Shown piece by piece: positions 38,045-61,882 of a DNA stretch of 64,000 nucleotides (positions are counted from its first letter, which is position 1; the number at the start of each line of letters is the position of its first letter). A model generated the notes under the pieces. It was not told the DNA's origin and ran no database searches. It was given only the letters and a program-made list of their open reading frames with translations. Source of the DNA: Alcaligenes faecalis (GTDB lineage Bacteria > Pseudomonadota > Gammaproteobacteria > Burkholderiales > Burkholderiaceae_B); contig NZ_CP023667.1 of NCBI RefSeq assembly GCF_002443155.1, positions 2,294,001 to 2,358,000 on the forward strand, written 5' to 3'. The translations under genes were made by a program, and so were the position numbers.

Positions 38045-38049
38045 AACAA

Positions 38050-38094
38050 CTCCTGGCCGGATAAGAGACAAATGACCACAAACCCTCCCGGCCA
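38050..38094 (-). promoter_or_regulatory. Stem next to the ribosome site of the Mn exporter gene
   Basis: TGGCCGG (38094-38088 on the minus strand) can pair with CCGGCCA (38060-38054), whose last base begins the AGGAG ribosome site (38054-38050). It is placed as an expression platform for the riboswitch, where folding could hide the ribosome site. Confidence 0.5.
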
Positions 38095-38107
38095 AACGCG
38101 AAGGTCC

Positions 38108-38216
38108 ATGGTCAAAAGTCTTGCCAGGCTAGTTGCTATCAGCGCCATGACCCTGTGTAGGCCAAGTATGTTGACGCTGATCTTCGGTAATCCGAAGCGG
38201 CTACTCCCTAATGACG
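38108..38216 (-). promoter_or_regulatory. yybP-ykoY manganese riboswitch
   Basis: On the minus strand the leader of the GDT1 gene holds the hallmarks of this class in order: TAGGGAGTAGCCGC near 38210, a short hairpin CTTCGGATTACCGAAG (38198-38183), GCGTCAACATACTTGGCC (about 38176-38159), and the closing GCCTGGCAAGACTTTTGAC. The GGGAGTAGC and GTCAACATACT blocks form the Mn2+-binding core. The 5' boundary overlaps the divergent promoter region; ends are approximate. Confidence 0.85.
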
Positions 38217-38312
38217 AAGCGCATCGTAGCCCATATTAAAGCGCCTGTCCAATCGGGACGTTTTCAACGCACAGGAAGTACACTTGCTTATTTCCACGCT
38301 TTCACCTTACGC

Positions 38313-58623: not shown

Positions 58624-60045
58624 TCAGTCCAGAGGACGCGGGGGCAACATCTTGCCAGGGTTCATGATGTTGTGAGGGTCCAGCGCCTGCTTGATGCTGC
58701 TCATCACATCCAGTGCATCCTGACCGTGCTCGGCCAACATGAACTCCATCTTGTGCAAGCCCACACCGTGCTCGCCGGTACATGTACCTTGCATGGCAAT
58801 GGCACGCTCTACCAGACGATGGTTCAAGCGCTCGGACTCGTCCCACTCTTCCTGGCTATCGGCATCCAGCAGCATCAGAACGTGGAAGTTGCCATCACCC
58901 ACGTGACCCACGATGGTGTACGGGAACGGAGCCTGATCCATATCGGCCGCGGTTTGCGCCACACACTCTGCCAACGCGGAGATAGGCACACAAACGTCCG
59001 TGGTGCTGGAACGACAGCCGGGACGCAGTTGCAAACCGGCAAAATAGGCGTTGTGTCGGGCCGTCCACAAGCGGGAACGATCCTCGGCCTTGTCAGCCCA
59101 TTCAAAGTCCATGCCACCGTTTTCACGGGTAATTTCCTGAACCACCTGAGCCTGTTCCTGCACACCGCTGGGGCTGCCGTGGAATTCAAACAGCAACAGG
59201 GGCGATTCTTTCAGCGTCAGCTTGCTGTAGGCATTGGTGGCACGTACGGCGGCCGTATCCATGAACTCAACGCGCGCAATCGGAATACCCATTTGAATGA
59301 CCTCGATCACGCTTTGCACGGCAGAGCGCAGATCGGGGAAATTACAGATGGCGGCAGAAATGGCTTCGGGTTGCGGGTACAGACGCACCGTCACTTCGGT
59401 GATGATGCCCAGCGTGCCTTCGCTACCGATGAACAAGCGGGTCAGGTCGTACCCGGCGGAGGATTTCTTGGCTCGGTTAGCCGTATCGATAATGCGGCCG
59501 TCTGCCGTGACGACCTTCAGGGTCAGGACGTTTTCACGCATGGTGCCGTAACGCACGGCATTGGTACCGGAGGCACGGGTTGCAGCCATCCCGCCCAGGC
59601 TGGCATCCGCACCGGGATCGATGGGGAAGAACAAGCCCGTATCACGGATATGCTCGTTCAAGGCCATGCGTGTCACGCCAGCTTGCACTGTGGCGGTGAA
59701 GTCTTCGGCATTAATCGCCACGATCTCATCCATGCCGGACAAGTCCAGGCTGACGCCACCTTGAATTGCCAGGAAATGCCCTTCCAGGGAGGAGCCGGCC
59801 CCGTAAGGGATCAGGGGAACATGATGCTCATGACAATGACGTGCCACCCAGGCTACTTCTTCTGTGCTGCGAGCAAAAACAACCACATCAGGCAGCATGG
59901 GTGGATACGGCGACTCATCCCGTCCATGGTGTTCACGCACAGCGTGAGAAAGCGAGCACCGCTCTTGGAACTGAGCCTGCAAGGCTTCTACAAAACCTTC
60001 AGGTAAAGGGCGCCGCGCTAGATCGGCATGACCGGGAGCATTCAT
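58624..60045 (-). CDS. FAD-linked D-lactate/2-hydroxyacid dehydrogenase (DLD/GlcD family)
   Basis: 473 residues. FAD-binding type 4 domain: HHVPLIPYGAGSSLEGHF and DPGADASLGGMAATRASGTNAVRYG. C-terminal FAD-oxidase domain with metal/substrate residues VGHVGDGNFHVLM and CTGEHGVGLHKMEFM. Oxidises D-lactate or a related 2-hydroxy acid, passing electrons to cytochrome c or quinone. ATG 60045 has GGA at good spacing; ATG 60051 two codons earlier is possible. It lies 26 bp downstream of the DAHP synthase gene and may share its attenuated transcript. Confidence 0.88.
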   Translation of the reverse strand: MNAPGHADLARRPLPEGFVEALQAQFQERCSLSHAVREHHGRDESPYPPMLPDVVVFARSTEEVAWVARHCHEHHVPLIPYGAGSSLEGHFLAIQGGVSLDLSGMDEIVAINAEDFTATVQAGVTRMALNEHIRDTGLFFPIDPGADASLGGMAATRASGTNAVRYGTMRENVLTLKVVTADGRIIDTANRAKKSSAGYDLTRLFIGSEGTLGIITEVTVRLYPQPEAISAAICNFPDLRSAVQSVIEVIQMGIPIARVEFMDTAAVRATNAYSKLTLKESPLLLFEFHGSPSGVQEQAQVVQEITRENGGMDFEWADKAEDRSRLWTARHNAYFAGLQLRPGCRSSTTDVCVPISALAECVAQTAADMDQAPFPYTIVGHVGDGNFHVLMLLDADSQEEWDESERLNHRLVERAIAMQGTCTGEHGVGLHKMEFMLAEHGQDALDVMSSIKQALDPHNIMNPGKMLPPRPLD

Positions 60046-60071
60046 GAGCATTCCAAAAAGGCAAAACCCTA

Positions 60072-61163
60072 TTATGAGTGGCTAAGTGCCCCCTCTTCAA
60101 GAGCGACTCGTGCCTGGCGACGCTGACGCACCGCTTCAGCCAGTTTTTCCAGAACCACCACGGTGTCATCCCAATCGATGCAACCATCGGTAATGCTTTG
60201 GCCGTAGGTCAAAGGCTTGCCTTCCACCACGTCCTGACGACCGCCTACCAGATGGCTTTCGATCATCACGCCGCAGATACGCATATCGCCGCCCGAGATC
60301 TGACCGGCCACATCGGCCAGCACTTCGGGCTGACGGCGGTAGTCTTTATTGCTGTTGGCGTGGCTGGCATCGACCATCACACGCGGCACCATGCCAGCCT
60401 TGATCATGGCCTGGCTGGTTGCCTCAACGTTTTCAGCATCGTAGTTCGGTGTCTTGCCGCCGCGCAGAATCACGTGGCAATCGTTATTACCCACGGTGGA
60501 CACAATGGCGGAGTGACCACCCTTGGTGACCGACAGGAAATGGTGTGGCTGGGAAGCGGCCTTGATCGCGTCCAGAGCAATACGGATATTGCCATCCGTG
60601 CCATTTTTGAAGCCGACGGGGCAGGACAACCCGGAGGACAGTTCGCGGTGAACCTGGCTCTCTGTCGTGCGAGCACCAATGGCGCCCCAGGAAACCAGAT
60701 CGGCAATGTACTGGGGAGTAATCATGTCCAGGAATTCGCAACCAGCGGGCAAATCCAGCTGGTTCACGGCCAGCAGCAATTCACGCGCGGTACGCAAGCC
60801 CTGATTGATGTTGAAGCTGCCATCCATGAAGGGGTCGTTGATCAGCCCTTTCCAGCCCACGGTGGTACGTGGCTTTTCGAAGTACACACGCATCACGATT
60901 TCCAGCTCGGGCGCAAAGCGCTTGCGCTCCACCGTCAAACGGCGGGCGTAGTCCATTGCGGCTTCAGTATCGTGAATGGAACAAGGGCCCACCACGACCA
61001 CCAGACGATCATCCCGTTCGTGAAGGATTTTGTGAATGCTGCGGCGTGCCTTGTGAACCGTAGTCGAGACAGCAGAGGTACACGGGAACTCGCGCATCAC
61101 ATGGGATGGGGGAGACAGCTCCTTAATTTCACGAATCCGTAAATCATCAGTATTGTGCGACAC
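60072..61163 (-). CDS. aroG: DAHP synthase, class I (AroG type)
   Basis: 363 residues. Condenses phosphoenolpyruvate and erythrose 4-phosphate, the first step of the shikimate pathway. Motifs: VVVGPCSIHD, FEKPRTTVGWKGLINDP, FLDMITPQYIADLVSWGAIGARTTESQ in part, SCPVGFKNGTDG, VDASHANS and GVMIESHLVGG. Overall closest to the Phe-sensitive E. coli AroG. The start is GTG 61163 with GGAG seven bases before it. Upstream is a Phe/Tyr-rich leader peptide and terminator, so expression is likely controlled by attenuation in addition to allosteric feedback. Confidence 0.95.
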   Translation of the reverse strand: MSHNTDDLRIREIKELSPPSHVMREFPCTSAVSTTVHKARRSIHKILHERDDRLVVVVGPCSIHDTEAAMDYARRLTVERKRFAPELEIVMRVYFEKPRTTVGWKGLINDPFMDGSFNINQGLRTARELLLAVNQLDLPAGCEFLDMITPQYIADLVSWGAIGARTTESQVHRELSSGLSCPVGFKNGTDGNIRIALDAIKAASQPHHFLSVTKGGHSAIVSTVGNNDCHVILRGGKTPNYDAENVEATSQAMIKAGMVPRVMVDASHANSNKDYRRQPEVLADVAGQISGGDMRICGVMIESHLVGGRQDVVEGKPLTYGQSITDGCIDWDDTVVVLEKLAEAVRQRRQARVALEEGALSHS

Positions 61164-61202: not shown

Positions 61203-61236
61203 GAAAAAAAAGCCGCCCGGACAATGCTGGCGGCTT
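61203..61236 (-). terminator. Attenuator terminator upstream of aroG
   Basis: On the minus strand AAGCCGCC (61236-61229), 11-nt loop, GGCGGCTT (61217-61210) and eight U (61211-61204). It ends 40 bases before the aroG GTG. Its 5' arm (CCGCCAGC, 61233-61226) can instead pair with GCTGGTGG (61293-61286) in the leader, one G-U pair included, giving the alternative antiterminator. Confidence 0.88.
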
Positions 61237-61253
61237 ATTTCAGGATTTGGGTC

Positions 61254-61346
61254 TTACTTGTGTTTGGTGCAACCCGTCCTTTCCTCCACCAGCGGCATCG
61301 GAAAAGCATAAAAATAAAAGAAGAAAACGGGGGTTGCGAAAGTCAT
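61254..61346 (-). CDS. Phe/Tyr-rich leader peptide of the aroG attenuator
   Basis: 30 codons, ATG 61346 to TAA 61254, preceded by AGGA eight bases upstream. Residues 8-15 read FFFYFYAF, seven aromatic of eight, followed by PMPLVEERTGCTKHK. Codons 4-6 contain GCAACCC (61337-61331), which can pair with GGGTTGC (61275-61269) in codons 24-26; a ribosome stalled on the aromatic codons would cover the first arm and free the antiterminator segment at 61293-61286. The design equals pheL-type leaders but controls the first, not a late, aromatic enzyme. Too short for standard gene finding. Confidence 0.87.
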   Translation of the reverse strand: MTFATPVFFFYFYAFPMPLVEERTGCTKHK

Positions 61347-61651
61347 GGGAAAAATCCTAACACAGTTCCGGACGCGCCGCCAACAAAACCAGCAAGATTC
61401 ATCCACAAAAACGCAGAACAACAAAATATTTATACTAACAAGACCCTAAAAAATACCACCAAACGAAACAATCATTTCGTTTAGCGTTTTTTATTGGCCC
61501 TTTTGTTTCGTGTTATCGCGAAAAACCACGATAAATCGTTTAGATGGCTTGTTTGTCTTATTTTTACATCTACATACAAACCTGATCACTATCTGTCCTG
61601 CGCAGAGGGAAAAGGGCCAGAACACAGGGTTCTGGCCCTTAGCTGCCTAAT
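61347..61651. other. Promoter region upstream of the aroG leader
   Basis: About 300 bp, AT-rich. On the minus strand a TATAAA (about 61435-61430) could be the -10. AAACGAAA (61461-61468) and TTTCGTTT (61475-61482) form an inverted repeat with a 6-bp gap; TTGTTTCGT follows at about 61503-61511; TTATCG (61513-61518) / CGATAA (61529-61534) form another small dyad. The cstA-ybdD terminator closes the right end. No gene is supported. Confidence 0.5.
61609..61640 (-). terminator. Intrinsic terminator of the cstA-ybdD operon
   Basis: On the minus strand AAGGGCCAGAAC, 5-nt loop, GTTCTGGCCCTT followed by TTCCC; arms at 61612-61623 and 61629-61640. Strong stem, weak U tract. Confidence 0.82.
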
Positions 61652-61882
61652 TTAGCAGCACGCTATCCGCCCTTTTCCGCCATAACGAGCTTGCTGTCGC
61701 TCGCGGAAAAACTCGGCGTACTCCATCGGTTTCTGATCGGGGTGATTTACCCGCATATGATTCAGATAGGTTTCATAATCAGGCACGCCCACCATCAGGC
61801 GCAAGGTTGTGGCCAGATAACGCCCGGTACCCCGCCCTGCCTGGGCACTGCGCGAGATGGCTCCTGTCAATAAGCCTTTCAT
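61652..61882 (-). CDS. YbdD/YjiX-family small protein (DUF466)
   Basis: 76 residues. Family features: GVPDYETYLNHMRVNHPDQKPM and EYAEFFRERQQARYGG, ending with a Cys pair (RIACC). These proteins always accompany CstA/BtsT-type carbon-starvation transporters and are needed for their function in E. coli. It starts one base after the cstA stop, with AGGAG inside the end of cstA, so the two are coupled. Confidence 0.92.
   Translation of the reverse strand: MKGLLTGAISRSAQAGRGTGRYLATTLRLMVGVPDYETYLNHMRVNHPDQKPMEYAEFFRERQQARYGGKGRIACC

Follow-up and report, generated by a model that had tools for sequence, protein, structure and literature searches.

The work of Vitreschak et al. from 2004 is said to be the main survey of proteobacterial attenuators. 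In Escherichia coli, the leaders of pheA and pheST have Shine-Dalgarno sites, and their stop codons lie before arm 2. Both leaders (that of pheA being pheL) combine a Phe leader peptide with attenuation, as is proposed for the locus described here, but their target genes differ (PMC11802643; this and the other PMC sources are cited from partial text). A Phe-responsive leader of a DAHP synthase gene has been described for aroR-aroF of Corynebacterium glutamicum (Neshat et al. 2014, as described in PMC11802643), and it was predicted in PMC4046766. There, as here, an aromatic leader peptide precedes the DAHP synthase gene, and ribosome stalling under Phe limitation raises transcription, as is likewise proposed here; however, the host is an actinobacterium, the aromatic run is given as Phe-Tyr-Phe only and the availability of Tyr was without effect (PMC11802643). 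The uORFC-13-1 motif in front of Acholeplasma aroF also resembles the present locus in its predicted uORF, Phe codon(s), terminator and DAHP synthase gene, but it occurs in Acholeplasma and environmental sequences only, has a ribosome-binding site and is purely computational (PMC8632094). The attenuator RNA of trpL (rnTrpL) in Sinorhizobium meliloti has its 5' end at the ATG of the leader ORF, which is predicted likewise here, whereas its codons are for Trp, its target is trpE(G) and its host is an alpha-proteobacterium (PMC7298713). Leaderless mRNAs have also been described in Burkholderia cenocepacia, with a promoter box immediately upstream (PMC4603805), and in Cupriavidus metallidurans (PMC7563307).

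No report of a beta-proteobacterial aroG attenuator was found among the literature matches listed; the available part of PMC2965389 mentions neither phenylalanine nor DAHP, and that of the proteobacterial regulon survey PMC5343134 holds nothing on an aroG attenuator in this group. The mechanism considered below is known, being that of the classic ribosome-mediated attenuator, and a Phe leader of a DAHP synthase gene and a leaderless attenuator ORF each have a precedent. What appears to be new, among the literature matches listed, is the leader family itself, its width, and the combination of a Phe/Tyr leader of a DAHP synthase gene with a leaderless start. With its predicted Phe/Tyr leader peptide before a DAHP synthase gene, the present leader fits the aroR-type description in its features.

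The locus lies in the window, i.e. the whole 64,000-nt stretch of Alcaligenes faecalis DNA that was analysed, and its features are collected in Table 1. An initial annotation had proposed a Phe/Tyr transcription attenuator in front of aroG. Its observations on the DNA were largely confirmed: the 30-codon frame with FFFYFYAF at codons 8-15 and the arms GCAACCC and GGGTTGC were found again in the sequence, and the GTG start of aroG at 61163 lies 40 nt 3' of the T run. The strand GCTGGTGG is complementary, with one U-G pair, to CCGCCAGC (61233-61226), as expected of the pairing with the terminator 5' arm that had been noted. The terminator stem is formed by AAGCCGCC (61236-61229) and GGCGGCTT (61217-61210), followed by T8 (61211-61204); the 8-bp stem and the eight U stand as annotated, with the T run supplying two of the pairs. 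A run of codons for the amino acids of the pathway in a short leader ORF, and an intrinsic terminator between this ORF and aroG, are both present.

Table 1. Features of the aroG leader and the two genes downstream, in window coordinates.
Feature	Position	Strand	Remark
-35-like hexamer TTGGCG	61378..61383	-	18 nt 5' of the -10
Extended -10 box TGTTAGGAT	61354..61362	-	ends 7 nt 5' of the leader ATG; contains AGGA
Predicted start of the leaderless RNA, most likely on the A of the leader ATG	61346..61349	-	inferred from -10 spacing
Leader ORF MTFATPVFFFYFYAFPMPLVEERTGCTKHK followed by stop, 30 codons	61254..61346	-	read in sequence
Control codons 8-15, FFFYFYAF	61302..61325	-	read in sequence
Arm 1, GCAACCC, partner of the 3' part of arm 2	61331..61337	-	folding, swap test
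Arm 2, 5' part, antiterminator strand GCTGGTGG	61286..61293	-	folding; frozen synonymous sites
Second antiterminator helix, 5' strand AGGA	61277..61280	-	folding, swap test
Arm 2, 3' part, GGGTTGC	61269..61275	-	folding, swap test
Second antiterminator helix, 3' strand TCCT	61242..61245	-	folding, swap test
Intrinsic terminator (arms 3 and 4) with eight T	61204..61236	-	pattern search, swap test
aroG, DAHP synthase, GTG start	60072..61163	-	NF006723, 591 bits against a cut-off of 568
FAD-linked dehydrogenase, GlcD-like, next downstream gene	58624..60051	-	best match 365.5 bits, below the glcD cut-off of 567.9

Six consecutive Phe/Tyr codons (TWY x6) matched once in the window, as did the terminator pattern, and neither was found in 100 shuffles (0/100 each), by which a chance origin of the leader run and the terminator was rejected. 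In the 4.08-Mb genome, TWY x6 gave 13 overlapping matches, a raw count that is uninformative because the backward-read control gave 23. These matches fall in three places, among which the leader is the sole mixed Phe/Tyr run, the other two being plain TTC repeats. The folding stability of the whole leader was not above that of shuffles (z -1.06), and energy alone gives no support. A generic scan of the window listed neither the aroG leader terminator, the loop limit of the scan being 3-8 nt, nor the proposed leader promoter, which has 8 of 12 consensus bases where 9 are needed.

The promoter box was compared in 73 distinct upstream sequences from 83 loci. TGnTANNNT ended 6-9 nt 5' of the leader ATG in all 73, the place of a -10 element for a transcript that begins with its start codon, whereas random upstream placements gave it in 14 of 4150; because the compared sequences are related, the 73 are not independent events. 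The -10 hexamer was TAGGAT in 30 sequences, TAGAGT in 24 and TAGCAT in 6, with other variants in the rest. The best match to TTGACA at spacings of 15-19 was most commonly TTGGCA (22 of 73), and the spacing was 17 in 42 and 18 in 27 sequences (17 or 18 in 69/73). The base at -1 of the leader ATG is a pyrimidine in 71/73. Among 17 further leaders of the same family, the box stood 6-9 nt before an ATG in 13 (not in L255, L257, L270 and L271). In 28 further loci (L119 from the same family, the others from other families) it was found 6-10 nt before the start in 14 when the last base could be T or A, a relaxed form that has no random-placement control, and in 10 with T only. Because an extended -10 box is conserved with its end 6-9 nt from the ATG, the leader is most likely translated from a leaderless RNA. 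The transcript is predicted to start at the leader ATG, probably at the first letter of the frame, and therefore no ordinary ribosome-binding site would be needed. The AGGA that the initial annotation had taken for a ribosome site sits inside the -10 hexamer TAGGAT and is probably untranscribed.

An aromatic leader, defined by F, Y or W in six or more of nine successive positions, precedes aroG in 70 of 80 named loci (70 distinct upstream sequences), most of which are labelled Alcaligenaceae or its genera. Under a strict test, 66 of these 70 have a GC-rich stem of five perfect pairs with five or more T behind it; in the remaining four, the Advenella loci L073, L076, L081 and L088, the terminator stem includes a G-U pair. 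Ten named loci gave no leader. In L074, only 89 nt of upstream sequence is present, which contains the 3' end of the element (E 1.4e-7) before the contig end cuts off the rest; L056 has a degenerate form (E 1.1e-4); and eight of the 80 (L067, L068, L070, L082, L094, L108, L109 and L110) show no trace, with no RNA model match at E <= 1. Loci L001-L030, with L026 excluded, were read in the + direction only and gave 13 leaders; they were not counted as negatives. A model-free test (a terminator and five or more aromatic residues out of nine) was applied to the region before aroG in other families of the order, with 60 regions from 59 genomes; these genomes are the higher-scoring ones and overlap the 399 searched below. 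Leader and terminator were found in 17 of the 60 regions, from 9 of 26 families, and were missing in 43; the reverse strand of the same regions reached the aromatic threshold alone in 3/60.

Two observations were made at loci of the comparison. In L056 and L165, a degenerate leader (...RFYKYGYTHSLAKG...), perhaps on its way to loss, stands before aroG with the terminator kept. At L109, where the leader is absent, the end of tldD lies directly upstream of aroG, and several other aroG loci lacking the leader look alike by eye.

Next to these direct counts, a covariance model (R1) was built from 31 leaders, running from the ATG to the U run and containing no aroG sequence. In 399 genomes of the order, 96 matched at E <= 0.1 (58 of 159 genera), 46 of them below 1e-4. 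The best 30 of the order matches were fetched and all lay upstream of aroG; nine were from the same family, among them the window and some that belonged to the training set or were close to it, and 21 were from other families. In these 30, the leader starts 148-267 nt before the match; the leaders from other families are aromatic again, with Trp in some, e.g. MYSRASSYFWYYFSKPQAVKG. In the own-family sample, 128 of 151 genomes matched at E <= 0.1 (in 123, the E value was 5.6e-4 or lower) and aroG was found in 146 of 151, the two being counted separately. In the genome of the window, the leader was the only match below E 0.1. Of 369 genomes sampled from the class, 15 gave a match at E <= 0.1. 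Apart from the genome of the window, six were below 1e-4; these matches all lay upstream of aroG, and four came from outside the order. Eight weak ones (E 0.0098-0.068, L154-L161) had no aroG in the fetched stretch and were taken as chance. Since the model matches reach other families and the class, yet only 17 of the 60 regions carry leader and terminator, the element is, by this comparison, old but patchy. In L162 (G004:C1:1193000-1196500), the aroG leader occurs in a second copy, which includes the initial codons of aroG and runs into a piece of MnmA (NF001138, 329.6 bits) lacking roughly 90 positions at the start of the model; because mnmA is the second gene after aroG in the window, this copy looks like a local rearrangement.

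Pairing of the arms was examined using a swap test, in which the duplex energy of own arms was compared with that of swapped partners in 31 representatives below 88% identity, out of 83. For arm 1 and arm 2, the energy was -9.9 kcal/mol with own and -7.0 kcal/mol with swapped partners (z -7.5 and -7.6 in two runs), and the controls gave z -2.5 for reversed arm 1, -1.7 for the next 24 nt and -0.6 for arm 1 with the pre-terminator stretch. Two runs also gave z -4.2 and -4.1 for the second antiterminator helix (GGGAA/UUCCC type; control -0.8) and z -5.0 and -4.9 for the 5' and 3' arms of the terminator (control +1.2). The core antiterminator helix GCUGGUGG/CCGCCAGC hardly varies and showed no significant co-variation in the 31 representatives (z -1.6), and the control codons with arm 2 gave z -2.1 only (first run). 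The CCGCC and GG.GG columns of the terminator are invariant in the 31 aligned representatives. The attenuator reading of the initial annotation is thus supported by relatives, in which the aromatic leader frame, the terminator and the alternative arms are kept and the arms co-vary.

The synonymous sites of arm 2 are frozen in a count that omits L073: CTG in 29/30, GTG in 17/17 Val codons, GAA in 25/25 Glu codons and GGG in 23/23 Gly codons. In contrast, three codons ahead of the Leu, Pro is encoded by CCA in 9, CCG in 8, CCT in 6 and CCC in 1. Because the wobble sites of arm 2 are frozen while the number of codons varies, these patterns speak for selection on the leader at the RNA level. In the second half of the control run, relatives encode Phe by TTT in 25/25, 21/21 and 27/28, and this near-exclusive use may reflect RNA pairing or decoding speed.

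The switch was modelled on the RNA from the front edge of the ribosome to the last base before the U run, as an equilibrium calculation of a kinetic process; the U run was left out because its bases sit in the RNA-DNA hybrid during the decision. For the window, the antiterminator reached 0.92-1.00 with the ribosome at codons 1-14 and 0.55 at codon 15, and the terminator prevailed from codon 16, its win once the ribosome covers arm 2 being partly built into the model. Without a ribosome, the terminator reached 0.69, and the antiterminator 0.99 if the RNA ended after arm 3; because of these values, protection by the 1:2 hairpin looks weak in the modelled window. In the 31 representatives with the U run omitted, the mean antiterminator value was 0.25-0.29 at codons 8-11 and 0.43-0.49 at codons 12-14. 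With the RNA ending after arm 3, it exceeded 0.5 in 31/31 representatives at codons 7-13 and in 15/31 without a ribosome. When the U run was included, the terminator won nearly everywhere, and the antiterminator of the window peaked at 0.47. For a mutually exclusive antiterminator sharing the terminator 5' arm, then, the pairing exists and the flanking helices co-vary, and the modelled switch needs the U run omitted and is weak on average in relatives.

In summary, the aroG leader is very probably a ribosome-mediated transcription attenuator of the aroG transcription unit, with the leader translated from a leaderless RNA. The best reading of the sequence is that it would sense the charging of Phe and Tyr tRNAs, and of Trp tRNA too in some relatives, and would control the only DAHP synthase found in the genome. 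Sequence and comparison show the leader frame, the promoter box and the conserved alternative arms; the start site, stalling, readthrough and the relative importance of the tRNAs are inferred. RNA polymerase would start at the leader ATG or within about three bases of it, and the frame would be translated off the leaderless RNA. When Phe-tRNA or Tyr-tRNA is short, the ribosome would stall at codons 8-15 and cover arm 1; arm 2 (GCUGGUGG...AGGA) would then pair with arm 3 (UCCU...CCGCCAGC), no terminator would form and aroG would be transcribed. When charged tRNA is plentiful, the ribosome would read on past arm 2 until it reaches the stop codon, and transcription would be terminated by the GCCGCC/GGCGGC hairpin and its U run.

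The same attenuator could instead have its leader ORF translated via AGGA (61358-61355) as a Shine-Dalgarno site, on an RNA from a promoter further upstream, which we consider unlikely. This would suit the position of AGGA about 9 nt 5' of the ATG in the window and its presence in 30 of the 73 distinct upstream sequences, the occurrence of TGCTAGGAT only 111-121 nt before the aromatic run in L255 and L257 of the same family, the lack of the box near the start in 14 of the 28 further leaders examined, and its not being listed by the generic promoter scan. However, an SD-like four-mer is absent from 43 of the 73 sequences, whereas TGnTANNNT is kept in every one of them. AGGA seems to occur only within TAGGAT, because both are found in 30 sequences, and the columns from -60 to -46 of the aligned upstream sequences hold no strongly conserved base. 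These points favour translation from the leaderless RNA.

Very little weight is given to the idea that the locus is a constitutive terminator or an sRNA gene with a small protein, whose peptide or RNA of about 140 nt acts in trans, control of aroG being incidental. Although the terminated leaderless trpL RNA of S. meliloti and its peptide do act in trans (PMC7298713), the best 30 of the R1 matches all stand before aroG, the alternative arms co-vary in the swap tests, and the frozen wobble sites of arm 2, together with the varying codon number, point to RNA-level selection. An additional role of the leader RNA or peptide in trans could exist beside attenuation. Least probable, to the point of being scarcely credible, is a metabolite-binding riboswitch or a protein-bound leader in place of a ribosome-sensed one. 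The leader is, as this would require, a conserved 5' element with a terminator; however, runs of aromatic codons are kept despite their variable number and identity (F, Y, W), no conserved core beyond the arms and the run was seen by eye, and no Rfam 15 family reaches its cut-off at the leader locus. On the last of these grounds, a known riboswitch or T-box was rejected, and membership in Phe_leader (RF01859) was rejected at 13.9 bits against a cut-off of 55. Because no Rfam 15 family reaches its cut-off here, the attenuator leader of aroG is a candidate new Rfam family.

The genome of the window (4,075,263 bases, one contig) contains one AroG-type match and no match to the type II DAHP synthase model. 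A TyrR-type HTH model likewise found no match in it and did match the E. coli control. The attenuator predicts control of the entry into aromatic amino acid synthesis in many bacteria of the order; in the genome of the window, the models used detected no TyrR-type HTH and no further DAHP synthase. On a wider and distinctly tentative view, old and widespread leaderless attenuators before aroG, in several families of the order and, beyond it, in four genomes sampled from the class, might let the shikimate entry read Phe, Tyr and, in some lineages, Trp charging by one leader. Because the RNA would begin at AUG, the first ribosome might bind straight to the 5' end emerging from the polymerase, and ribosome and polymerase could thus be synchronised without a Shine-Dalgarno site; the terminated leaderless RNA of about 140 nt could also act in trans. 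Such leaders would be a natural system for how a leaderless first round of translation keeps pace with RNA polymerase.

The gene order at the locus is cstA, a gene for a KCU-star-like small protein, leader, aroG, FAD dehydrogenase and mnmA. AroG is 100% identical to AroG of A. faecalis AU14 in the best segment. The dehydrogenase had been placed 26 bp after aroG; this distance reaches its second candidate ATG, whereas the first ATG is 20 bp away. The dehydrogenase adjoins aroG in 67 of the 80 named loci at an identity of at least 59%, loci without the leader included, and five other named loci have a match at 31-33% only. Co-transcription of aroG and the FAD dehydrogenase is likely. Between cstA and the leader, the gene at 61652-61882 (- strand) encodes a 76-aa protein ending in Cys-Cys-stop, which matches the KCU-star selenoprotein family at 61.9 bits, below the cut-off of 85. 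Elsewhere in the window, a manganese riboswitch (yybP-ykoY, RF00080) was detected at 38045-38221 (- strand) with 84 bits.
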